The position numbers and the translations under genes were made by a program. Below are positions 37,735 to 47,217 of a stretch of DNA of 64,000 bases, piece after piece. A model generated the notes under the pieces. The model did no database searches and was not told the origin of the DNA. It saw nothing but the letters and a program-made list of their open reading frames with translations. The stretch comes from Microbacteriaceae bacterium (GTDB lineage Bacteria > Actinomycetota > Actinomycetes > Actinomycetales > Microbacteriaceae), in NCBI GenBank assembly GCA_027491295.1, contig JAIXWK010000002.1, positions 308,032 to 372,031 of the forward strand, written 5' to 3'. Numbering within the stretch: the first letter of the stretch is position 1; every line of letters begins with the position of its first letter.

Positions 37735-37807
37735 GGGGACTTAGCTCAGTTGGTAGAGCACCTGCTTTGCAAGCAGGGGGTCAGGGGTTCGACCCCCCTA
37801 GTCTCCA
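37735..37807 (+). tRNA. tRNA-Ala (TGC anticodon), integration target
   Basis: Acceptor GGGGACT pairs with AGTCTCC, the anticodon stem-loop CTGCTTTGCAAGCAG gives TGC, and the T arm is GGGGG... with TTCGACC. CCA is not encoded. The last 20 bp, including one base after the tRNA, are the left attachment core of an integrative element; they keep the tRNA intact. Confidence 0.97.
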
Positions 37808-37808
37808 C
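37789..37808 (+). repeat. attL core of the tRNA-Ala integrative element
   Basis: TCGACCCCCCTAGTCTCCAC, the tRNA-Ala 3' end, recurs exactly at 46790-46809 in direct orientation. Flanking bases differ at both ends, fixing the core at 20 bp. Confidence 0.9.
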
Positions 37809-37815
37809 CCACAGT

Positions 37816-37846
37816 GGAAAACCCTCTAGAAATAGGGGGTTTTTCC
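37816..37846 (+). terminator. Hairpin after tRNA-Ala
   Basis: GGAAAACCCT (37816-37825) pairs imperfectly with AGGGGGTTTTTCC (37834-37846), and the right arm has a T run. It lies just inside the element and probably ends the tRNA transcript. Confidence 0.6.
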
Positions 37847-37860
37847 ATTTAACAACACCC

Positions 37861-37943: not shown

Positions 37944-39239
37944 GTGGGAACCAGGCAAAGACCTAGACCAAATGGCACAGGTGGTCTTTGGACGATCAAA
38001 CGCAAACGCTGGAATGAAGCCAAGCAAACCTTTGAAATGGTTGAGCTGTATGTCCGTGGGCAAGAAATCAAAGATGAAGACCTCCCTGACGGAAAACGTA
38101 GGTGGGTAACTGGGACAGGAAGAACACCAGAGGAAGCCGAGAAACGGCTTTTGGCGGCATTGCAAAAAAGGGGATATCGCAAGGGGTTGGAGGTCGCAGG
38201 AACCCTTCCAAAGCGATCCGAGGGGGGTATGAGGACTGAAGATTACCTCCTGCACTGGCATTCACAACTCTCCCCTAACTCTCTGAGTCCAACCCAGATC
38301 ATCAAGTACAGGCAATACCTGGCTAATCACGTAATTCCTCATGTTGGACACATACCAATCAAGGATTTGGGACATAGGGATATGGCAAATCTGTTTGAAG
38401 CAACCCTTCCTTCCAAGAAAAAGGTTGTTTCCGGAGTCCAGACTGAAGAAAGACTCCTGGGAAGCAACGGCTTGCTTAATGTCTACAAGACTCTCAATCG
38501 TGCTTTGAACGTTGCCGTCGCAGAAAGGGTGATCGATAGAAACCCCCTGGCTTTGGTCAAAGCACCTAGGTTTGAGAAACCAAAAGACAATATTCCTCAC
38601 TACATGCACATTGTTCTTGGGATCTTTAGCAAGATGCAGCAGGAGCAAGATCCATTGCTTGATCACTTTCTACTCTCCTTGTTGGGACTGAGAAAAGGTG
38701 AAAGATTGGGACTCAGCTGGAAGAACGTCTCTCTCAAGGGTGATAACCCCACCTTGATAATCAATCAGCAGCTTCAAAGAGTCAGCGGCATGGGTCTTGT
38801 AATCAAACCCAGTACCAAATCAGGTCATGAACGAAGGGTTGCGTTAGTTCCCCCATTTCTGGATCTGATGAAGAAGCTCAAAGAACAACGTAAGCAGCTT
38901 GAGAAATCCCCTGAGTTCCAACCTCGTCCTGAGTTTGCTGATCTGATATTCCTGACACCAACGGGCAAACCCTTTGATCCCAACACTGAGAATGAGATGT
39001 GGAATGAGGTTCTGAGGAAGTACAAGTCACCAATTCACATCAGAGCACATGCCACCAGACATATCGCAGCTACTTACCTGTCGGATCTTGATGTTCCTGA
39101 ATCAGTAGTGAAGTCAATCCTTGGACATGAGTCAGAGAGCATGTATTACTTCTATGCCAGGCAGACCAGCAAGAAGAACAGAGCCGAGCTTCAGAGGTAT
39201 GGAGAACACCTAGGCGGGGAGTACTTCTCTCCAAGGTGA
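37944..39239 (+). CDS. Tyrosine-type site-specific integrase
   Basis: This 431-residue recombinase starts with a basic arm-binding region (GTRQRPRPNGTGGLWTIKRKRWNE), followed by a SAM-like core-binding domain (residues about 95-200) and the catalytic domain. The catalytic residues are R in LLGLRKGERLGLSW, K in TKSGHERRVALV, HxxR in RAHATRHIAATYL, H in LGHESESMYYFYA and the nucleophilic tyrosine in the same segment. It lies 135 bp from the attL core in the tRNA-Ala 3' end, as expected for a self-integrating element. No excisionase is recognisable nearby. A shorter homologue starts at 46930. Confidence 0.93.
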   Translation: MGTRQRPRPNGTGGLWTIKRKRWNEAKQTFEMVELYVRGQEIKDEDLPDGKRRWVTGTGRTPEEAEKRLLAALQKRGYRKGLEVAGTLPKRSEGGMRTEDYLLHWHSQLSPNSLSPTQIIKYRQYLANHVIPHVGHIPIKDLGHRDMANLFEATLPSKKKVVSGVQTEERLLGSNGLLNVYKTLNRALNVAVAERVIDRNPLALVKAPRFEKPKDNIPHYMHIVLGIFSKMQQEQDPLLDHFLLSLLGLRKGERLGLSWKNVSLKGDNPTLIINQQLQRVSGMGLVIKPSTKSGHERRVALVPPFLDLMKKLKEQRKQLEKSPEFQPRPEFADLIFLTPTGKPFDPNTENEMWNEVLRKYKSPIHIRAHATRHIAATYLSDLDVPESVVKSILGHESESMYYFYARQTSKKNRAELQRYGEHLGGEYFSPR

Positions 39240-39578: not shown

Positions 39579-39965
39579 TCATTCGATGGGTTGGATGTCA
39601 TCTCTTATCCACTTGTCTCTTTTTACCCTGCGAGTAATCGATGGGTCATCCTCACCAATCACAGGAAAGATGAGGTCGCTTGTGCCGGGTCGTTCGAGTA
39701 CTTGAATCCAACCTAGTTCAAGAGCTTTCTTCTTTGCCTTTCGAACAAAGTCCCTGGATCGATTCATCTCAATCTCGATGGTGTCATGAGTTGCATAACA
39801 TCCCGTGTAGCTCTTGTCTTTGGTCTTTGAGTGGTTCCATGTTGCCTTAGAAGCTACGTATCGACACAGGTCTTTTACCTGACTTGGCAGCCAGGCTGCA
39901 TTCACGATATTCATGTATTGAGCTTGCTGAATTGACTTGTCTATGAACCATGGTTTTTGCTGCAT
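39579..39965 (-). CDS. Winged-helix protein of the element, possibly a replication or regulatory factor
   Basis: The start MQQKPWFIDKS at 39965 has an AAGGAG ribosome-binding site 7 nt upstream; the 13 codons before it are unlikely to be used. The 128-residue product has an N-terminal stretch (AAWLPSQVKDLCRYVASKAT) like the opening helix of replication-initiator or helix-turn-helix domains, a recognition region (THDTIEIEMNRSRDFVRKAKKKALELGWIQVLE) and a basic tail. This resembles winged-helix domains of phage and plasmid Rep proteins but is too short for a complete initiator. Family unresolved. Confidence 0.55.
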   Translation of the reverse strand: MQQKPWFIDKSIQQAQYMNIVNAAWLPSQVKDLCRYVASKATWNHSKTKDKSYTGCYATHDTIEIEMNRSRDFVRKAKKKALELGWIQVLERPGTSDLIFPVIGEDDPSITRRVKRDKWIRDDIQPIE

Positions 39966-40033
39966 GTTGATCTCCTTATTGATTTCGATAACGATCCTCC
40001 TCAAGGGTCGTTTTCCCAGTGTTTATCTGGGTT

Positions 40034-40135: not shown

Positions 40136-40771
40136 ATGTTGATTGCGAAAGGACTGAGACCACCATCTGTCTCTGGCTACCCCAGCGGGGTAGCTGACCC
40201 TGATGTACCGCTTGAATATCATCCCCTTACAGCTGCTGACGCTTGGACTATGTTCTTTGCTCTTAGGGACAATGCTGAGAATCTTTCCAACCTGTTTGAG
40301 TGGGGATTGGAAGCGGCAAATTACTCACTTGAAACCGTCAAGAGGTATTGCCAGGTTCACGAAAACTATGAAGAGCAGCGTGACTTTGTCTTTTTCTCAA
40401 ACGGACAGTTTGTTGGTCAAGGTGCGATCTTGCCTCACCGTGAGCAAAAGAGCGAAAGACAGTTGGGGATCTGGGTGGATAAAAAACTCCAAGGCAGGGG
40501 GTTTGCAACAAAAATGGTGGAGATTCTTGAAAATGAAGTGTTTCAAAACCGCAAGGTTAAAGCTTTGTACTACCTGCACGACCTCAACAACCAGGCAAGT
40601 GCTGCCGTTGCAAGAAAGTCCCTGTTCGTCCCTCATTGCACATTCGAGCAGCCGATAAAAACACCCTCTGAGTCCGGAAACTGGCAGTGTTTGGTGAAAA
40701 CAAGGGAACTCTTCAACCTCCTCTCAACAAGAAGGCAAGATATTGAAGATTTATGGCTGCAAAACCTCTAG
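40136..40771 (+). CDS. GNAT family acetyltransferase
   Basis: This 211-residue protein is of the RimJ/RimL type: HPLTAADAWTMFFALRDNAENL at the start, then QLGIWVDKKLQGRGFATKMVEILENEVF, the acetyl-CoA pyrophosphate-binding loop (QGRGFA) and helix, then LHDLNNQASAAVARKSLF. The substrate is unknown; family members modify ribosomal proteins, tRNA-linked amino acids or antibiotics. Ribosome-binding site AAGGAT. Its end overlaps the convergent zinc-ribbon gene by 4 bp. Confidence 0.8.
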   Translation: MLIAKGLRPPSVSGYPSGVADPDVPLEYHPLTAADAWTMFFALRDNAENLSNLFEWGLEAANYSLETVKRYCQVHENYEEQRDFVFFSNGQFVGQGAILPHREQKSERQLGIWVDKKLQGRGFATKMVEILENEVFQNRKVKALYYLHDLNNQASAAVARKSLFVPHCTFEQPIKTPSESGNWQCLVKTRELFNLLSTRRQDIEDLWLQNL

Positions 40772-42816
40772 GAATCCAGTTGGTTCTGAGAAACCTGATT
40801 GATTACTTGGCGGATTTTTTCGATGATCTCTTGATCCGTTAAAGCTTCCATAGAGAAGGTCTCTCTCCACCCTCCTTTGAGTTCGTCTTTTGACAAATAT
40901 GGCGGTAGACCAAGGTCGGAACGAATCCACCGGAGCAATATCGTTTCCACATGTCTTGTGTGTATTCCGCTTCGAATGGGACTTTCGCTTATTCGCTTCC
41001 ATCCAAGTCGTTCGAAGTGCTTGATTCTCAGGGTTTTGATCCCTTGATTTGTAATTCCAATTTTGTTGGCTTTCATTTCAACGTTCTGAATGAAATACAA
41101 GATGCCAGGTTTACTCTGATCAAAACCACCAGGAGCACAGGTAGGACACCCTGACCCCGAAGATATATTCGAAATCATGGACTGCCATTCATGACCTCGA
41201 TCGCACTTCCACCAAACCCTTCTTGCGGAGAACGGGGTGACTTCTTCCGGTGAAATGTCCAGGTTTCGTTTGAAATTCCAAAGCTCAATTACTTCGGGAA
41301 GTCTCGTTCTCAAATCGTTGAAACCCACAAGTACTGTTTTTCCGGAACAAACACTGCATCCGCTCTTTTGCTGGCTTCTGTTTCGAATGGAAGATTTATA
41401 GATGTGACCAAGTGGACATCGCCAGGAGACTTTTCTCTCCGAGAATGCGGAAACACTCTTTGGGTCGAAGTTCAAATCAGCGATTTCTTCAAGGAGATGA
41501 GGAGCGACGGTTGCCAAGTCGTTAAATCCAAACTCGACTTGATAATTGGAGCAGACGGAGCATCTTTGGGTTTTGACTCGAAACACAACAGACTTGGAAG
41601 TCACGTGTCCCCTCTCGCAACGCCAATTGATGATCACATTCGAGCCTGCGGTAACATCTCGTCCCGAAATCCCACCATTCAGTTCAGGAATAATCTCCCT
41701 GGACACCTCCGGATGCGTTGTCGCAAGGTCATTGAATCCCACCAAGACTCTTTGGTTTGTGCAGACAGGACAACCAGTCTGTCGTCCGACCCGTCCCGAG
41801 ACAGTTGCGTCAAATGAATGACCTAAACCACAGATCCACCAAACCTTTTTTGCGTATCCGCTAGTCACGTCTGAAGGGGTGTTTGGATTTCTAGAAAAAT
41901 CCCATTCAGATGCAATCTTTGGATGAGTGCTCGCAAGATCGTTGTAACCGGGTAGGAACTTGACTTTCTTGCAGAACGGGCAACCAGTTCCAATTCCTCT
42001 AGTTCTATTGGTGAGGGATGCATACCAAGAATGGTCATTTTTGCACCTCCACCAGACTTTCTTGGCAGATCCAGAAAATACCTGGGATGGTGAGGATTCA
42101 TTCTTGGAGTAGTCCCACTCTTTGGCAATTTCGGGAAACTGTGACTCAAAATCGTTCTGTCCCACAACAAGTTCTCGGTTGTCGCAGACAGGGCAGGAGC
42201 TGATAGTGCCTGACTTTTTCCTAGTTCGCTCACTTGGCGAGAGATGGAATTTGTGACCGGATTCACATTTCCAAAAAACCTTCTTCGCATACCCTGCGGT
42301 GATCACTGTTGGCTTTAGATCAGCGTTGGCGTCGTAGTCCCACTCCTTCTCGAGTTGCGGGTGGGTTGTGGGTATGTCGTTAACACCAGCTACAACAGTT
42401 TTATTGAGGCAGACTAAACATCCCGATCCCTTGGCTCTGTGGGTAATAACCGCTTCCCACTCATGACCCTTGTTGCATATCCACCAAACCTTTTTCTTTG
42501 ACCCCGCAACAAAATCGAGTGGTGAAAGACCCCCATTTCGAATTGTGTTCCATTCGGTGACTAGGTCTTCGTGAGTTGTCTTGAGGTCGTTAAATCCGAC
42601 CAATACCCTCTTATTTGAACAAATCAAGCATCCGTATCCAAGGAGACGATTGCCAAGGGGAGATTGCCAGTGATGTCCTTTTTCGCAGATCCACCAGGCA
42701 GCCTTCTTTTTCGGCCAATGGGTAATCGGCATCTTGTTGCGACCAATGTCCCACTCTCTAGCCAGAGATGCAAGCGAGTTAGCCTCTGTTCGACTAGTTG
42801 GTTCATGATGAGACAT
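40768..42816 (-). CDS. Eight-repeat zinc-ribbon (DUF4379-like) protein with GIY-YIG-like C-terminal domain
   Basis: Starting at MSHHEPTSRTEAN (42816), the protein has about 682 residues. Residues 1 to about 570 are eight copies of a ~69-residue unit with the pattern GFNDLxTTHPEL, EWDxxRN, KKVWWxCxxGH.W, and CPxC, matching the Probable Zinc-ribbon domain (DUF4379, PF14311). Most units keep two cysteines of each knuckle plus the histidine; some have lost spacing. The final ~100 residues start GILYFIQ, contain KIGITN and a conserved arginine, and look like the GIY-YIG-type T5orf172/MUG113 domain, so a nuclease is possible. A TAATCT -10 sits 6 nt before the ATG (leaderless). Likely a mobile-element or defence protein; function unproven. 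Confidence 0.7.
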   Translation of the reverse strand: MSHHEPTSRTEANSLASLAREWDIGRNKMPITHWPKKKAAWWICEKGHHWQSPLGNRLLGYGCLICSNKRVLVGFNDLKTTHEDLVTEWNTIRNGGLSPLDFVAGSKKKVWWICNKGHEWEAVITHRAKGSGCLVCLNKTVVAGVNDIPTTHPQLEKEWDYDANADLKPTVITAGYAKKVFWKCESGHKFHLSPSERTRKKSGTISSCPVCDNRELVVGQNDFESQFPEIAKEWDYSKNESSPSQVFSGSAKKVWWRCKNDHSWYASLTNRTRGIGTGCPFCKKVKFLPGYNDLASTHPKIASEWDFSRNPNTPSDVTSGYAKKVWWICGLGHSFDATVSGRVGRQTGCPVCTNQRVLVGFNDLATTHPEVSREIIPELNGGISGRDVTAGSNVIINWRCERGHVTSKSVVFRVKTQRCSVCSNYQVEFGFNDLATVAPHLLEEIADLNFDPKSVSAFSERKVSWRCPLGHIYKSSIRNRSQQKSGCSVCSGKTVLVGFNDLRTRLPEVIELWNFKRNLDISPEEVTPFSARRVWWKCDRGHEWQSMISNISSGSGCPTCAPGGFDQSKPGILYFIQNVEMKANKIGITNQGIKTLRIKHFERLGWKRISESPIRSGIHTRHVETILLRWIRSDLGLPPYLSKDELKGGWRETFSMEALTDQEIIEKIRQVINQVSQNQLDS

Positions 42817-42975
42817 AATCAAAGATTACTTAGTCATCCCTTCTAACGATCGTTTGTTTTACACCTAACCAAATCCCAGGCAAGTTCGGAATTCGTGTAA
42901 ATCAACCCGTGAAGTAATCAATGTAAAAATGTCCTACCCCAGATTTACTCTCGATGTATCGAGCAGGGAGAAAGA

Positions 42976-43569
42976 TTGGGAAATCTAGTGTTCGGATACA
43001 GCAGGGTATCTACCGCAGACCAAAGCCACGCATCACAAGAACTTGCATTGCGAGCTGCTGGTGTTCAGCAAGTATTTTTAGACACGTATACCGGAGCATC
43101 GGCTTCCCGTCCTGAATTGGACAAACTCCGACTAACTATCCGACAGGGTGACACGGTTGTTGTTACTCGTCTCGATCGACTGGGACGATCAGCGAAGGAC
43201 TTACTGAACCTTTCGTCGGAGTTTGAAGAAAAGGGGGTGAACCTCGTAGTTCTGGAGCAAAACATCAACACAGCGACGCCGGAAGGCAAGCTATTTTTCA
43301 CAATCATTTCCGCTATGGCAGAGTTTGAAAGGTCTCTCATAAGTGCAAGAACGAAGGATGGGTTGGCTGCGGCAAGGGCAAGGGGAATGAAAGGTGGCAG
43401 GAAGCCAGTCATGAATCCGGCCAAAACCTTAGCCGCACAAAACATGTTCCGAGACGGTCGTCACGTATCTGAGATTGCCTCAGTTATTGGAGTGTCTCGT
43501 CCGACAATCTACAAGGTGCTCAATCAGAGGGCAGACGTCGAACTTACCCCTATTCAAAGTTCAACTTGA
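42976..43569 (+). CDS. Serine recombinase (resolvase/invertase family)
   Basis: This 197-residue small serine recombinase has the nucleophile in FGYSRVSTADQ (Ser9 counting from the TTG start), the DRLGRS arginine motif, and the DNA-binding helix-turn-helix at the end (GRHVSEIASVIGVSRPTIYKVLN). The TTG at 42976 has GGAG 6 nt upstream; GTG at 42988 is an alternative. It is complete. It could resolve multimers or invert a DNA segment; I see no obvious inverted cross-over pair nearby. The 159 bp before it holds no other gene. Confidence 0.88.
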   Translation: MGNLVFGYSRVSTADQSHASQELALRAAGVQQVFLDTYTGASASRPELDKLRLTIRQGDTVVVTRLDRLGRSAKDLLNLSSEFEEKGVNLVVLEQNINTATPEGKLFFTIISAMAEFERSLISARTKDGLAAARARGMKGGRKPVMNPAKTLAAQNMFRDGRHVSEIASVIGVSRPTIYKVLNQRADVELTPIQSST

Positions 43570-43639: not shown

Positions 43640-44236
43640 GTGAATTGCATTAACTGTTCTTTTGAACTGACATCGACTTCACTTTTTTGTCAAAACTGCG
43701 GGCAAAAAGTGCAAAAACGAGAAGATCCCAACCCAACTGCAAGTCCATTTGCTTCACCTAATCGTATTTGGGGTGTTTGGGGTGTGGTTGCGTTAATAGT
43801 CCTGATGACATTTTTCTTCAGCCAACTTTCCGGATCCCTATCAGGCTCGTTATTTAGCAGCTCGGAAAGCTCAAATTCTTCTGACGCTTCTCAAGCTTCT
43901 CCAACTCAAGATGAGCAATCCTCAGCCGAACCTTGGTTCCCTTACGGATTTAGTGAACTCACGGATGGAATCGCCTACAAATCCCTTGGGAAAGGGAACA
44001 TGGATTGTGGCTATTCGTCCCCTCATTCTTGTTACCAAATCTACGTAGTTACTAAGTACAGCTGCGAACTCTTCGTCCGAGTCAATTTTCTAGCTGATGG
44101 CATAGTTGTGGATGACGCTCTTGACTCCGCAAGTGTTTCTGCCGGAGAGCAAGCAGTATTGACGTTCGCCTCCTTAAAGGCAGCGAATTATGAGGGAAGC
44201 AAAAAGATAAAGTTCACAGAAGCCACATGTTATTGA
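43640..44236 (+). CDS. Zinc-ribbon, single-helix membrane protein of unknown function
   Basis: The start is GTG at 43640, 7 nt after a GGGGGA ribosome-binding site. The 198-residue protein has an N-terminal zinc ribbon (CINC...CQNCG, residues 3-21), a charged linker, one membrane helix (WGVWGVVALIVLMTFFF, about 46-62), a serine-rich stalk and an external domain with four cysteines (CGYSSPHSCY and others). The cytoplasmic ribbon / helix / external domain layout is seen in envelope-stress-type proteins. It heads a possible three-gene run with the nuclease-like gene that follows. Confidence 0.6.
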   Translation: MNCINCSFELTSTSLFCQNCGQKVQKREDPNPTASPFASPNRIWGVWGVVALIVLMTFFFSQLSGSLSGSLFSSSESSNSSDASQASPTQDEQSSAEPWFPYGFSELTDGIAYKSLGKGNMDCGYSSPHSCYQIYVVTKYSCELFVRVNFLADGIVVDDALDSASVSAGEQAVLTFASLKAANYEGSKKIKFTEATCY

Positions 44237-44280: not shown

Positions 44281-44805
44281 GTGACAAGCGAGGATGGAAC
44301 CATGGTTCGAAAAGTAGACACCTCTCTAACTGGAGCAGCGGGAGAACACCTAGTTCTGTCGAGACTCTTATCGAGAGGTTTCCTAGCTGCTCAAGCACCT
44401 CGTGGCACCCGCAAAGCTGACATACTTGTGAATTTTCTTGACGGTGGTGAACCTTGTCTAATCCAAGTTAAGTCAAGACAATACGGATCCGACGGCGGAT
44501 GGCACATGGGTGAAAAGCACGAGTCGCAGGTCGATAAAGATCTGTTCTTTTGCTTCGTTGACTTTCAACCTCATAACCCAACCGTTCACGTGATTCCTGC
44601 ACAGGTGGTAGCCGAAACCGTAAGAGTTGATCATGAAATTTGGTTATCCACTCCGGGTAAACGAGGTCAAGCTCATAACCCAACCAAGTTCCGAAGACTT
44701 CGCCCAAACCCCTACGGCAAGGCTGAGAACTGGATGGATGAGTACTTAGAGAATTGGGATCAAATTCGATTGCTGTCACTCCAACCAAGTACTAGCTCTG
44801 AGTAA
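44281..44805 (+). CDS. PD-(D/E)XK-like nuclease of the element
   Basis: This 174-residue protein has the order typical of the superfamily: E22 in TGAAGEHLVLSRLLSRGF, D47 in RKADILV, and a Q62-V-K64 motif in CLIQVKSRQ (Q in place of E, as in some Holliday-junction-resolvase-like and restriction-like branches). A W/G-rich loop (SDGGWHMGEKHE) follows. It may cleave or bind DNA. GTG at 44281 and ATG at 44302 are both possible starts. The next gene begins 2 nt after its stop, so the two are co-translated. Confidence 0.6.
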   Translation: MTSEDGTMVRKVDTSLTGAAGEHLVLSRLLSRGFLAAQAPRGTRKADILVNFLDGGEPCLIQVKSRQYGSDGGWHMGEKHESQVDKDLFFCFVDFQPHNPTVHVIPAQVVAETVRVDHEIWLSTPGKRGQAHNPTKFRRLRPNPYGKAENWMDEYLENWDQIRLLSLQPSTSSE

Positions 44806-44807
44806 CG

Positions 44808-45164
44808 GTGAATCTGAAATTGACTCAGAGATTTGAATTCGACGGTCGTCCACATGGGCAGCTGGGACTGTCGCCTGCGTCGTTCGAGGGATTCTGGACA
44901 CATCGATTTTGGATGGACGAGCCAGTCCGTCTAGTACTTGATTCGGAACATTTGCATCTAGTCGCACTGAACAACGAAACAACTAAAACTTGGGGTACCA
45001 ACCTTATTCAAAAAGTCAATATTGGTTTCCCAAACTCGAGCCAACCACATATCGAAATCTATTTCAGAGATGGTTCAATGATCAACGTTTATCAATTCGG
45101 ACTTCTTTTGTCTGAATTGAAAGCTCTGCAGCATCGATTGAGGTCGTTCATCACAAAGAATTAG
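44808..45164 (+). CDS. Hypothetical 118-residue element protein, partner of the nuclease-like gene
   Basis: From a GTG start, the product has 118 residues with a predicted beta-rich pattern (RFEFDGRPHGQLGLSP, VRLVLDSEHLHLVALN, HIEIYFRDGSMINVYQF) and a C-terminal helix. No family is recognised. Its 2-nt spacing after the PD-(D/E)XK-like gene implies a functional pair, such as nuclease and immunity or accessory protein; this is inference. Confidence 0.5.
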   Translation: MNLKLTQRFEFDGRPHGQLGLSPASFEGFWTHRFWMDEPVRLVLDSEHLHLVALNNETTKTWGTNLIQKVNIGFPNSSQPHIEIYFRDGSMINVYQFGLLLSELKALQHRLRSFITKN

Positions 45165-45217: not shown

Positions 45218-46597
45218 CTATCTCGTTAGCATCCTAAGCATGATGTTTTCAGTTGTACTGAGGCATGAATTGAATGCCGCACTGCTCTTTCCGACTTTCT
45301 GAGGATCAAATTCGGCTTCCTTCATGACCTCGGAATATGGCTTAACCATGTCGTTGATGTAGTTGTTAACAAACTTGTAAGGGTCAACCCTCCAAGAAAT
45401 GTTTCCATCAACACCCTTAACCAACAATGCTTTCAGGCTGTAAACAAGTGGTGCCAGGAAACCTTCTGGCGATTTATAGGTCATTGTCTCGTTGGTGAAC
45501 TTAGTCAACTTCGACTTGGCTCCGCTGTTGAGCTTCTCGACTGCCGTAATTCCACCGAAGCGACCGTTGTTGGCGTTGTACGCTTCTGGGAATTTCTTTG
45601 CAATCAGGTCATAGAGCTTAGGCATATCTGCACCAGCAATCTTTAGTGCAGAAAGTACCTGCACATTCGTGAGCTCAGCTTTGCCTCTTGGAGAGGTAGT
45701 CACACCTGGCGACGACATGAAGTCGTTGTATCGGGTCACACAAACACTCTTCTGCGAGTATGTCTGAACCGGACTTGGAGCGTTAATTGGCTTCTTGTCC
45801 TCGTCAAACGGCGTCATCTCTAGAGCTGTGAGCGGGATCCATGCCAAGGCAACCAAATCCGCCACCTTGACATCACCAGGTTCATTCGATCTCCACTCAA
45901 TTCGCTGCCTAATCGAACTATCGACATAAGACTTTAGGTCATCGAACAACCCAGCTTTGTCTGCCTTGGTTTCAAGCTTGAGCTGAGCATTGTTGTTTCT
46001 TGCTTCCTGGATGTCAATCAAAATTCGTTCGAAGTTGTTCTTGTCCAACTCGGAATCACTGAGTGGGAGTAATAGTTCAACTGGAACCAAGATTTGCAGT
46101 GTTGAATCATCACCCGACAGAAACTCATGGACTAGATCGATGTGCTTTTTAAACAAGCTCTTGAAGTCAGTCCAGATTTTTGCCGCTCGAAGGTCACGCA
46201 GATCCTTAGGATCCTCTAGAACTTGCTGCATTAGGAAGTGACCGATTGCAAGAAGGTTGTGACCACCGTCAAGGACACCCTCAATGGATCTCTCCACGAA
46301 ATCTAGTTCGAAACGATCCCTGTCCTTCTCGCTGTACTTGGTTGCAGCCAGCAGAATTCCCTTGGATTTGAGCGGGTATAGCTCAGGAGTGGTTTCCAAA
46401 GTCTCAATAATGTCGTTAGTAATCGAACTAACTTTTGAGTCTCTTGGGTTTGATTCCAGATCCAAAACCTCAATAAGGGTTGCGATCTGCTTTAGTTTGA
46501 CCAAGCCATAAATTCGCTTGGTGGAGTGAAGGTTCTGCCTTCCACACTCATCGAAACGGAGTGTCACGTCGTGGTTCTTAAAGTATGGCAATGCCAT
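45218..46597 (-). CDS. Hypothetical protein, possible AIPR/DGQHR-like phage-resistance protein
   Basis: The preferred start MALPYFKNHDVTLRFDE (46597) gives 459 residues; a TTG 20 codons earlier is less likely. Two segments recall the abortive-infection AIPR family (PF10592) and DGQHR-type proteins: LYPLKSKGILLAATKY, in place of the NNGITI motif, and SIEGVLDGGHNLLAIGHFL, in place of the NGAQT/DGQHR motif. Both are diverged, so the assignment is tentative. It is soluble and lies alone at the right end of the element. A TGTCCG...CGGACA palindrome lies 46 bp upstream. Confidence 0.45.
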   Translation of the reverse strand: MALPYFKNHDVTLRFDECGRQNLHSTKRIYGLVKLKQIATLIEVLDLESNPRDSKVSSITNDIIETLETTPELYPLKSKGILLAATKYSEKDRDRFELDFVERSIEGVLDGGHNLLAIGHFLMQQVLEDPKDLRDLRAAKIWTDFKSLFKKHIDLVHEFLSGDDSTLQILVPVELLLPLSDSELDKNNFERILIDIQEARNNNAQLKLETKADKAGLFDDLKSYVDSSIRQRIEWRSNEPGDVKVADLVALAWIPLTALEMTPFDEDKKPINAPSPVQTYSQKSVCVTRYNDFMSSPGVTTSPRGKAELTNVQVLSALKIAGADMPKLYDLIAKKFPEAYNANNGRFGGITAVEKLNSGAKSKLTKFTNETMTYKSPEGFLAPLVYSLKALLVKGVDGNISWRVDPYKFVNNYINDMVKPYSEVMKEAEFDPQKVGKSSAAFNSCLSTTENIMLRMLTR

Positions 46598-46642
46598 GAT
46601 TTTCTCTTTTCTATTCAAATGCTTTTCAGCGTTTTCTTCCGC

Positions 46643-46656
46643 TGTCCGGTCGGACA
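46643..46656. promoter_or_regulatory. Palindrome upstream of the AIPR-like gene, candidate operator
   Basis: TGTCCGGTCGGACA has two 6-bp inverted arms and lies 46-59 bp upstream of the ATG at 46597. No matching regulator is identified. Confidence 0.45.
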
Positions 46657-46722
46657 ACGCTTAAGTCTTATCACTCTTCAGTTCCTCATGTCAAGTGGGA
46701 CACGCCAAGAAAAATATCAAGA

Positions 46723-46789: not shown

Positions 46790-46809
46790 TCGACCCCCCT
46801 AGTCTCCAC
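46790..46809 (+). repeat. attR core of the integrative element
   Basis: This is an exact copy of the 20-bp tRNA-Ala 3' end at 37789-37808. It marks the right boundary of the ~9 kb element and is at the same time the left boundary of a second, deleted element. Confidence 0.9.
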
Positions 46810-46884: not shown

Positions 46885-46929
46885 ATTCCACCCTCAGAAA
46901 TGTCGGTGGGTACCCTTACCATCTTGTGT

Positions 46930-47217
46930 ATGGGGAAAGAAAATAAACGCAGACGCAAAGGCGAAGGTGGCCTTTACATCATTCACCGCAAGGTTTGGAA
47001 TGAGCTAAAGCAACAAGACGAGATCGTTGAGATGTATCAGGCAACCAAAGAGGTTGATCATCCAACAGATCCATTCAAACGCAAGACTCTCTCAGGAACT
47101 GGCTTTTCAGCACCTGAAGCACAATCACGTCTGAACAGGTCCATAAATCGCTTCTACAAAAAGAAGGGCTTCCAGGAAGCAGGGGTCAAGATAAAAAGCC
47201 GTGTACGTGGCTTATAG
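46930..47217 (+). pseudogene. Truncated tyrosine integrase (N-terminal domain only)
   Basis: Starting MGKENKRRRKGEGGLYIIHRK, this 95-residue frame aligns with the first ~95 residues of the integrase at 37944: shared GGL..I.RK.WNE.KQ, .VE.Y and GTG..PEA..RL. It stops before any core-binding or catalytic domain. It follows the second att core by 121 bp (135 bp in the intact element). It is best read as the remnant of an earlier related element. The 110 bp after it hold no recognisable gene. Confidence 0.75.

Follow-up and report, generated by a model that had tools for sequence, protein, structure and literature searches.

A predicted eight-unit zinc-array GIY-YIG nuclease carried as cargo of a tRNA-Ala island in a Microbacteriaceae bacterium

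What does a small genomic island gain from carrying, as its largest gene, a protein made of many zinc-binding units and a putative DNA cutter? The question is raised by a stretch of 64,000 nucleotides (the window) from a Microbacteriaceae bacterium (GenBank assembly GCA_027491295.1, contig JAIXWK010000002.1, positions 308,032 to 372,031). In the window, a gene here called the array nuclease is cargo of a 9-kb island inserted in tRNA-Ala(TGC) with a 20-bp repeat at both ends. Its product very probably consists of an eight-unit zinc array joined to a GIY-YIG nuclease domain, an architecture predicted from sequence and modelling. Its identity as a nuclease is well supported, while its role in the island is one that we infer: tentatively, it is a site-specific DNA endonuclease that descends from phage homing endonucleases and that islands retain as a means of attack on competing DNA. 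The gene is one uninterrupted open frame on the minus strand, from 42822 to 40768, with its stop at 40768-40770. It has 684 codons if it starts at the TTG at 42822 and 682 if it starts at the ATG at 42816-42814. The ATG is probably the start and gives the 682 residues counted in a first-pass annotation of the locus; the TTG is a possible alternative.

The array is the clearer of the two parts. Pfam-A assigns eight stretches of the protein to DUF4379 (PF14311), a probable treble-clef zinc finger, with E 3.2e-111 and a score of 363.9 bits against a cut-off of 24.5. Cys/His zinc ligands are present in all eight units, and Cys-x-x-[GD]-His occurs at residues 46, 116, 186, 260, 331, 402, 469 and 540. 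This spacing of 67-74 residues agrees with the eight units of about 69 residues described at first pass. The CxxGH...CPxC knuckle given in that description proved slightly too strict: CxxGH is found in seven units and CKNDH in unit 4, and the second pair is CPxC in only four, the others having CLxC or CSxC. A recent tandem duplication of units was rejected, and they are probably an old protein repeat rather than a recent expansion, because the gene contains no direct DNA repeat of 40 nt or longer and its sole repeat family is a 20-nt stretch (family D1) shared by five units at 75-95% identity.

The domain that follows unit 8 starts with GILYFIQ (residue 573) and holds KIGITN (residue 587), as had been read from the sequence earlier. 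Its candidate catalytic residues, numbered from the TTG, are Tyr576, Gly589, Arg599 and Glu626. A 14-sequence alignment was picked by hand from the window protein, 12 bacterial and Satis phage relatives, and one Krischvirus endonuclease found in a full-length search. The GIY Tyr, the YIG Gly, one Arg and one Glu are invariant in all 14 rows, so that both the Arg and the Glu singled out for checking at first pass are kept throughout; close to the domain end, a G-x-x-E motif likewise keeps its Gly and Glu in every row. In a second alignment Tyr and Gly are found in 14 of 14 rows, Arg in 13 of 14 and Glu in all 13 rows that extend to it. The T5orf172 family (PF10544) matches two rows of the first alignment at E ≤ 1, and Satis gp177, a protein without a zinc array, passes its curated cut-off (25.4 vs 20 bits). 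The window domain fails that cut-off, with no match even at E ≤ 10. Kinship was instead assessed by comparing alignments. Eight of nine PF10544 domains from other genomes (one with a stop was excluded) formed an independent T5orf172 alignment, to which the cutter alignment was matched by hhalign with a probability of 86.3 and E 4.8e-6, placing GIY, KIG, Arg and Glu in register. None of 100 column shuffles scored as high (best 6.1%), and the reversed alignment reached 0.1%. A phage family named 'endonuclease' (phrog_681) covers the last unit together with the domain, its best stretch being residues 535-671.

Modelling points in the same direction. An AlphaFold2 model of unit 8 plus the domain (pLDDT, the predicted local distance difference test, 80.8; pTM, the predicted template modelling score, 0.66) has the order strand, strand, helix, strand, helix, with the GIY and YIG strands at model positions 77-84 and 89-96, the Arg in helix 102-109 and the Glu in helix 123-140. 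A model of the full-length protein from its single sequence had a pLDDT of 30 and was discarded as useless. Foldseek found 102 matches at E ≤ 0.001 in BFVD, a collection of predicted viral structures. Most of the 50 listed are nameless; of those with names, two are uncharacterised and the others are CapR, zinc-ribbon or treble-clef, GIY-YIG, T5 Orf172 and Hef-like homing proteins. The top match, aligned over 114 columns at 2.2 A, is a 227-residue protein of the same length as Satis gp177. In the PDB, by contrast, no GIY-YIG entry is among the 50 listed of 256 Foldseek matches, and a profile search with the cutter alignment returned four rows, the best at E 0.79. Structure prediction, which the first-pass annotation had put forward as a check, bore out the likeness in its strand and helix order and in its GIY-YIG-named viral matches, and left it without a counterpart among those listed PDB matches. 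With the conserved residues and the hhalign result, the GIY-YIG/T5orf172 likeness of the ending is supported.

Solved structures are also the source of a highly improbable alternative, in which the target would be RNA: the DUF4379 units would attach to structured RNA, for the GIY-YIG domain to cut or process. The sole significant solved-structure relative of the window protein is a kinetoplastid mitoribosomal small-subunit assembly protein (6sga_Fd, E 2.3e-7), and the best PDB fold match of the model is a zinc protein of the Trypanosoma mitoribosome (7pua_Fd, E 0.041). However, a T5orf172 nuclease that has been tested, Odn of phage ICP1, cuts DNA according to the excerpted text of its description (PMC8263062), and the phage relatives are named as DNA homing endonucleases. 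DUF4379 proteins of foreign origin also form a family of 219 members in Mucoromycota, as given in an extract of PMC11291939. The kinetoplastid mitoribosome (6sga_Fd and 7pua_Fd) and fungi are odd homes for a phage-type zinc unit.

CapR is a repressor that is not known to have a nuclease domain. In the PLE satellite it is satellite-borne, and its zinc module is related to the units of the window protein. Another alternative, distinctly unlikely, is modelled on it: a DNA-binding regulator with a spent cutter, whose array would repress a promoter as PLE CapR does, cleavage having been lost. The CapR module is related to the zinc modules of T5orf172 homing genes and represses a phage, as far as the available portion of PMC10448857 describes it. 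A spent cutter is nevertheless hard to reconcile with catalytic Tyr, Gly, Arg and Glu residues that are intact in the window protein and its 13 aligned relatives.

The joining of a zinc array to a T5orf172-type cutter is already known from phages. The same portion of PMC10448857 presents CapR/DUF723-type zinc fingers with T5orf172 (GIY-YIG) as predicted phage homing endonuclease genes built as 'beads on a string', in which 200 of 229 T5orf172 genes hold at least one of three zinc-finger kinds and many hold several. One finger family is called DUF4397 (PF14344) in its text and DUF723/4379 in the legend to its Figure 5B; in the Krischvirus 'endonuclease', Pfam matches CapR and DUF4379 in six stretches each. 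The earlier remark that no function had been assigned to this layout is therefore not supported. The window protein resembles these phage proteins in its treble-clef-type units and T5orf172 cutter, and phage proteins are the best fold matches of its model. It differs in that its units are canonical DUF4379 and number eight, its cutter is too divergent for the Pfam model, and its gene is chromosomal cargo of a tRNA island. As far as the literature searched goes, what is new is a divergent branch with canonical DUF4379 arrays and a cutter missed by Pfam models, residing in tRNA islands and large plasmids. The open-licence literature on DUF4379, T5orf172, CapR and Rhodoluna islands yielded no description of a zinc array with a GIY-YIG cutter in bacterial islands. 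The branch is mostly actinobacterial, in a sample that was centred on that phylum.

A second reading, quite possible and a close rival of the first, is that of a selfish homing endonuclease gene: its product would cut cognate alleles from which the gene is missing, and repair of the break would copy the gene into them. Such a gene would just happen to sit in the island, or would have arrived from a phage with it. The layout is that of the predicted phage genes, phrog_681 matches the protein, and the named BFVD matches include such phage proteins and one Hef-like homing endonuclease. Several bacterial copies are short or broken, as the homing cycle predicts. The points against homing come from where the gene is found.

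The element in the window is a tRNA-integrating genomic island, as shown by its integrase, its repeats with the tRNA 3' end and the island-free site of relatives. In three genomes of the same genus without it, the flanking genes are separated by less than 1 kb, compared with 9.5 kb in the window. Their left flanks are 96-99% identical to that of the window, and similarity ends at 37808 in two and at 37859 in the third. The G+C content falls from about 0.54 outside to 0.44-0.48 inside. These features confirm the cargo position in a mobile element proposed at first pass. As then stated, no other island gene is as large as the array nuclease: it has 684 codons, and the two that follow in size have 479 and 431. 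It does not face away from the integrase: the plus-strand integrase lies to its left, and the minus-strand nuclease gene is read towards it. With regard to a phage satellite of the PICI/PLE kind, no packaging family was found among the eight window proteins scanned with PHROGs, a scan outside which the acetyltransferase and the resolvase lay, and IMG/VR held no close relative of the island integrase.

Related genes occupy two further islands. In Candidatus Planktophila versatilis (L037) the array nuclease lies in a 7.9-kb stretch between 49-base exact repeats that are part of tRNA-Leu(TAA), following a tyrosine integrase (E 3.5e-25) and an HTH_36 protein (E 1.5e-11). In a genome of the window's own family (L098) it lies in an 8.8-kb stretch between 44-base repeats of tRNA-Arg(ACG), again after an integrase (E 3.3e-19) and an HTH_36 protein (E 5.4e-12; PHROG replication initiation E 1.5e-15); this island has one weak virion match (PHROG, E 0.0015). 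When all open frames of at least 60 residues were compared by BLASTP at E ≤ 0.001, the window island shared with each of the others only the integrase (24-25% identity) and the nuclease (32-33%), bar one antisense artefact each; the tRNA-Leu and tRNA-Arg islands additionally share a short stretch of the HTH_36 protein. A third, diverged copy (64%) of the 44-base attachment repeat lies inside the tRNA-Arg island 6.5 kb from attL (L098:14078-14121), and that island is possibly a composite of two.

The nuclease is carried by integrase islands that sit at three distinct tRNA genes, a mode of carriage that homing does not require and that needs no homing for spread. Relatives without the gene are also without the entire island, and no allele precisely missing the gene was found: near matches to the region of the Rhodococcus DN22 plasmid occur in three records, DN22 included, and all three carry it. 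The same islands give some support to an unlikely further possibility, that the nuclease manages its own element, for example by nicking the origin or the attachment sites for excision, replication or copy control. It adjoins integrase and HTH_36 genes, the latter partly replication-like, in all three islands, and two of them have the nuclease and HTH_36 genes on one strand. In the third, however, the strands are opposite; the three islands differ in their attachment sites and yet have related cutters, and other relatives are on large plasmids and at loci where no integrase was found.

Wider neighbourhoods were surveyed with 97 proteins picked from 14 loci (90 from 13 loci and seven window genes, leaving out the window integrase, spurious-looking open reading frames and distant genes). 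Among the 25 of 85 Pfam families listed, none outnumbers resolvases, phage integrases and rve transposase cores, which have three members each. A site-specific recombinase is nearby in at least six of the 14 loci and absent from the picked genes of the rest. In a Microbacteriaceae metagenome-assembled genome (L033) a tyrosine integrase adjoins tRNA-Ala(GGC) on the contig of its nuclease copy, and serine resolvases lie no more than 6 kb from the copies of Arthrobacter (L032) and Microbacterium (L035). Two side observations concern individual neighbourhoods. The nuclease is nearly identical in Rhodococcus NJ-530 and DN22 (L001 and L030), yet a stretch upstream of it measures about 2.8 kb in NJ-530 and about 165 bp in DN22, and at L100:220-627 a small protein weakly similar to the array units (28-31% identity) adjoins an array nuclease.

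Presence of the array nuclease is patchy. Counting the window's own genome each time, relatives of the cutter domain were found in seven of 398 genomes of the family and, by profile search, in two of 22 of the genus, seven of 396 of the order and 12 of 396 of the phylum. Relatives occur in 32 of 72,556 plasmid records and in one of 50,697 phage records, the stand-alone cutter of Streptomyces phage Satis. Scans with degenerate patterns gave six loci in genome contigs and 12 in IMG/VR, some of the latter standing alone and some preceded, by eye, by a few CapR-like units. Some weaker relatives have no zinc array at all. Array length varies too: DUF4379 stretches number eight in the window and six, six, five and two in four relatives. 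Cellulomonas (L034) retains no more than the last part of the array and the cutter, the cutter is cut short in Cryobacterium (L036), and a frame change lies inside the short array of L099. The idea that the array diverges faster than the cutter was rejected, since the two proved similar, at 0.37-0.65 for the array and 0.36-0.63 for the cutter in 20 of 21 pairs, the near-identical pair L001/L030 being left out.

Like arrays are also joined to different cutters, as the first-pass annotation had held. The array on a Rhodococcus qingshengii plasmid (L002) is 42% identical to that of the window over residues 40-565 and has an ending annotated DUF559. By eye it has about nine DUF4379 units at L002:5668-7965, the final DUF559 part being annotated separately, and its similarity is close to that of the arrays of GIY-YIG relatives (0.37-0.42, measured differently). 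A search with the window protein retrieved 14 arrays from IMG/VR, none with a GIY-YIG ending; 11 have other endings (ten of them Vsr/PD-(D/E)XK-like by eye), two identical ones end after the array, and one is incomplete at the DNA end. In the two identical arrays (L116 and L117) the frame closes directly behind the final zinc pair, and none of the downstream frames that were read holds a cutter. CapR/DUF4379-like arrays with Vsr-type cutters have been published for phage group II introns, in the part of PMC12350094 available. Such EDxHD/Vsr or DUF559 proteins share the kind of zinc array found in the window, whereas their cutter is Vsr/PD-(D/E)XK-like instead of GIY-YIG.

These observations can be brought together in an interference mechanism. 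The eight zinc units would lie along double-stranded DNA and jointly recognise one long site, and the GIY-YIG domain beside unit 8 would break or nick adjacent DNA by means of Arg599, Glu626 and a metal ion. If host and island lack the recognition site, the enzyme could destroy competing phages or mobile elements that carry it. Interference was weighed over homing because otherwise different integrase islands carry the nuclease, homing being unneeded for its spread, and because a precedent exists. As set out in excerpts of PMC8263062, Odn of phage ICP1 is a T5orf172 nuclease with a borrowed DNA reader that destroys a satellite and loses its activity when one Glu is changed. Like the window protein, it has a T5orf172 GIY-YIG cutter with conserved Arg and Glu and a separate DNA-reading domain, and it acts in interference between mobile elements; its reader is RepA_N and phage-borne, whereas that of the window is an eight-unit zinc array and island-borne. 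A broader proposal, which must be considered doubtful, is that small tRNA islands of actinobacteria share a protein-only interference nuclease whose array has varied by gain, loss and divergence of units, whose cutter may be GIY-YIG or Vsr/DUF559, and whose targets would be long sites in rival phages or elements.

Several results weigh against interference, or against the assignments it builds on. By itself, the C-terminal domain has no Pfam match at E ≤ 10. Kinship to T5orf172 rests on the family alignment, because the window sequence alone scores just 5.8% against the T5orf172 profile, and the viral fold matches may rest partly on the zinc unit, since the searched model includes unit 8. Per-column entropy across the zinc units climbs gradually over many columns, with no hot spot of a few positions, and for that reason no two- or three-position reading code is claimed; the script used recovered just part of the units in several proteins (one in the Planktophila protein). 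Tyrosine integrases account for three of the 97 neighbours besides the window's own, and most of the 14 neighbourhoods have none. The short or broken copies (L034, L036, L099) would suit a weapon, but equally a gene that is dispensable or selfish. No recurring defence partner stood out among the 25 of 148 PADLOC families listed for the neighbours, where single defence genes could be missed; these comprise mad2 (three members) and the mad6, PD-T4-6, C3a189 (kinase), MkoA and PglW models (two each). Two Pkinase proteins among the neighbours probably account for much of this list. The nuclease itself matched no PADLOC model at E ≤ 0.1, and its assignment to a known anti-phage defence system was dropped.

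The features of the island and of the array nuclease are collected in Table 1.

Table 1. Coordinates in the window of the island ends, the island genes and the parts of the array nuclease
Feature	Position	Strand	Basis
attL, 20-bp repeat, 3' end of tRNA-Ala(TGC) 37735-37809	37789..37808	+	repeat and tRNA search
Tyrosine integrase of the island	37944..39239	+	PF00589 E 9e-16
Small HTH_36-like protein, possible replication or regulatory gene	39579..40004	-	HTH_36 E 0.012, 15.8 of 25 bits (below cut-off); phrog_186 E 0.051
GNAT acetyltransferase; 3' end overlaps the nuclease stop	40136..40771	+	Pfam
Array-nuclease gene	40768..42822	-	DUF4379 E 3.2e-111; phrog_681 'endonuclease' E 3.1e-49 (whole protein)
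Predicted GIY-YIG (T5orf172-like) nuclease domain, residues 573-684	40771..41106	-	alignment, model, fold matches, hhalign
Zinc unit 8, adjoins the nuclease domain	41137..41346	-	DUF4379 match, motif scan; modelled together with the nuclease domain
Zinc unit 7	41347..41550	-	DUF4379 match, motif scan
Zinc unit 6	41551..41760	-	DUF4379 match, motif scan
Zinc unit 5	41761..41970	-	DUF4379 match, motif scan
Zinc unit 4 (CKNDH variant)	41971..42183	-	DUF4379 match, motif scan
Zinc unit 3	42184..42408	-	DUF4379 match, motif scan
Zinc unit 2	42409..42618	-	DUF4379 match, motif scan
Zinc unit 1 (Cys46...Cys68; left edge approximate)	42619..42765	-	DUF4379 match, motif scan
Serine resolvase/invertase, divergent from the nuclease gene	42976..43569	+	PF00239 E 1.3e-43
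Protein with N-terminal zinc-ribbon-like motif	43640..44236	+	weak: phrog_2546 E 0.00029; 'superinfection exclusion Sie-like' E 0.022
Protein with distant YraN-like match	44281..44805	+	NF009154 E 0.048; phrog_29029 E 1.6e-7
Protein without a family above cut-off	44808..45164	+	Pfam, PHROG and further family scans
479-residue protein, sub-threshold AIPR match	45218..46657	-	AIPR E 0.032, 14.3 of 25 bits
attR, identical second copy of the 20-bp repeat	46790..46809	+	repeat search

Among the other island genes, the one with the YraN-like match perhaps encodes a PD-(D/E)XK nuclease. The island ends carry traces of their own. At the left end, 51 bases past the tRNA and inside the island (37809-37859) are common to one island-free genome, G013 (L094), and absent in the other two; the same locus also shows a 21-base match to the stretch beyond attR. 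Just outside attR, an integrase N-terminal remnant (46900-47217) resembles the first part of the island integrase, with 39% identity across 89 residues, its wider match containing one stop. Beyond attR, about 0.5-0.8 kb in the three relatives does not match the window. The remnant suggests an older island at the same tRNA. Elsewhere in the window's family, two genomes encode DUF4379 arrays of four stretches after an N-terminal CxxC part (L014:1105-3228, minus strand; L015:1-2247, plus strand). This part looked TniQ-like by eye, an assignment not upheld by Pfam, which gave no such match at E ≤ 10; the two proteins are possibly zinc-array target selectors of a transposon.

The array nuclease suggests a role for genes annotated merely as zinc-ribbon or hypothetical proteins. 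Even if the protein is a homing enzyme, its architecture extends from phages to bacterial tRNA islands and plasmids. If it is used against other DNA, parts of homing endonucleases would have become weapons of bacterial islands beyond the Vibrio phage-satellite case, and the long and regular array, with eight similar units in a single chain, would serve to test whether DUF4379/CapR modules follow a rule in reading DNA. A nuclease shared among islands, if that proposal is true, would be a protein-read counterpart of guide-directed immunity, with a rule from array to site that could be read by experiment.

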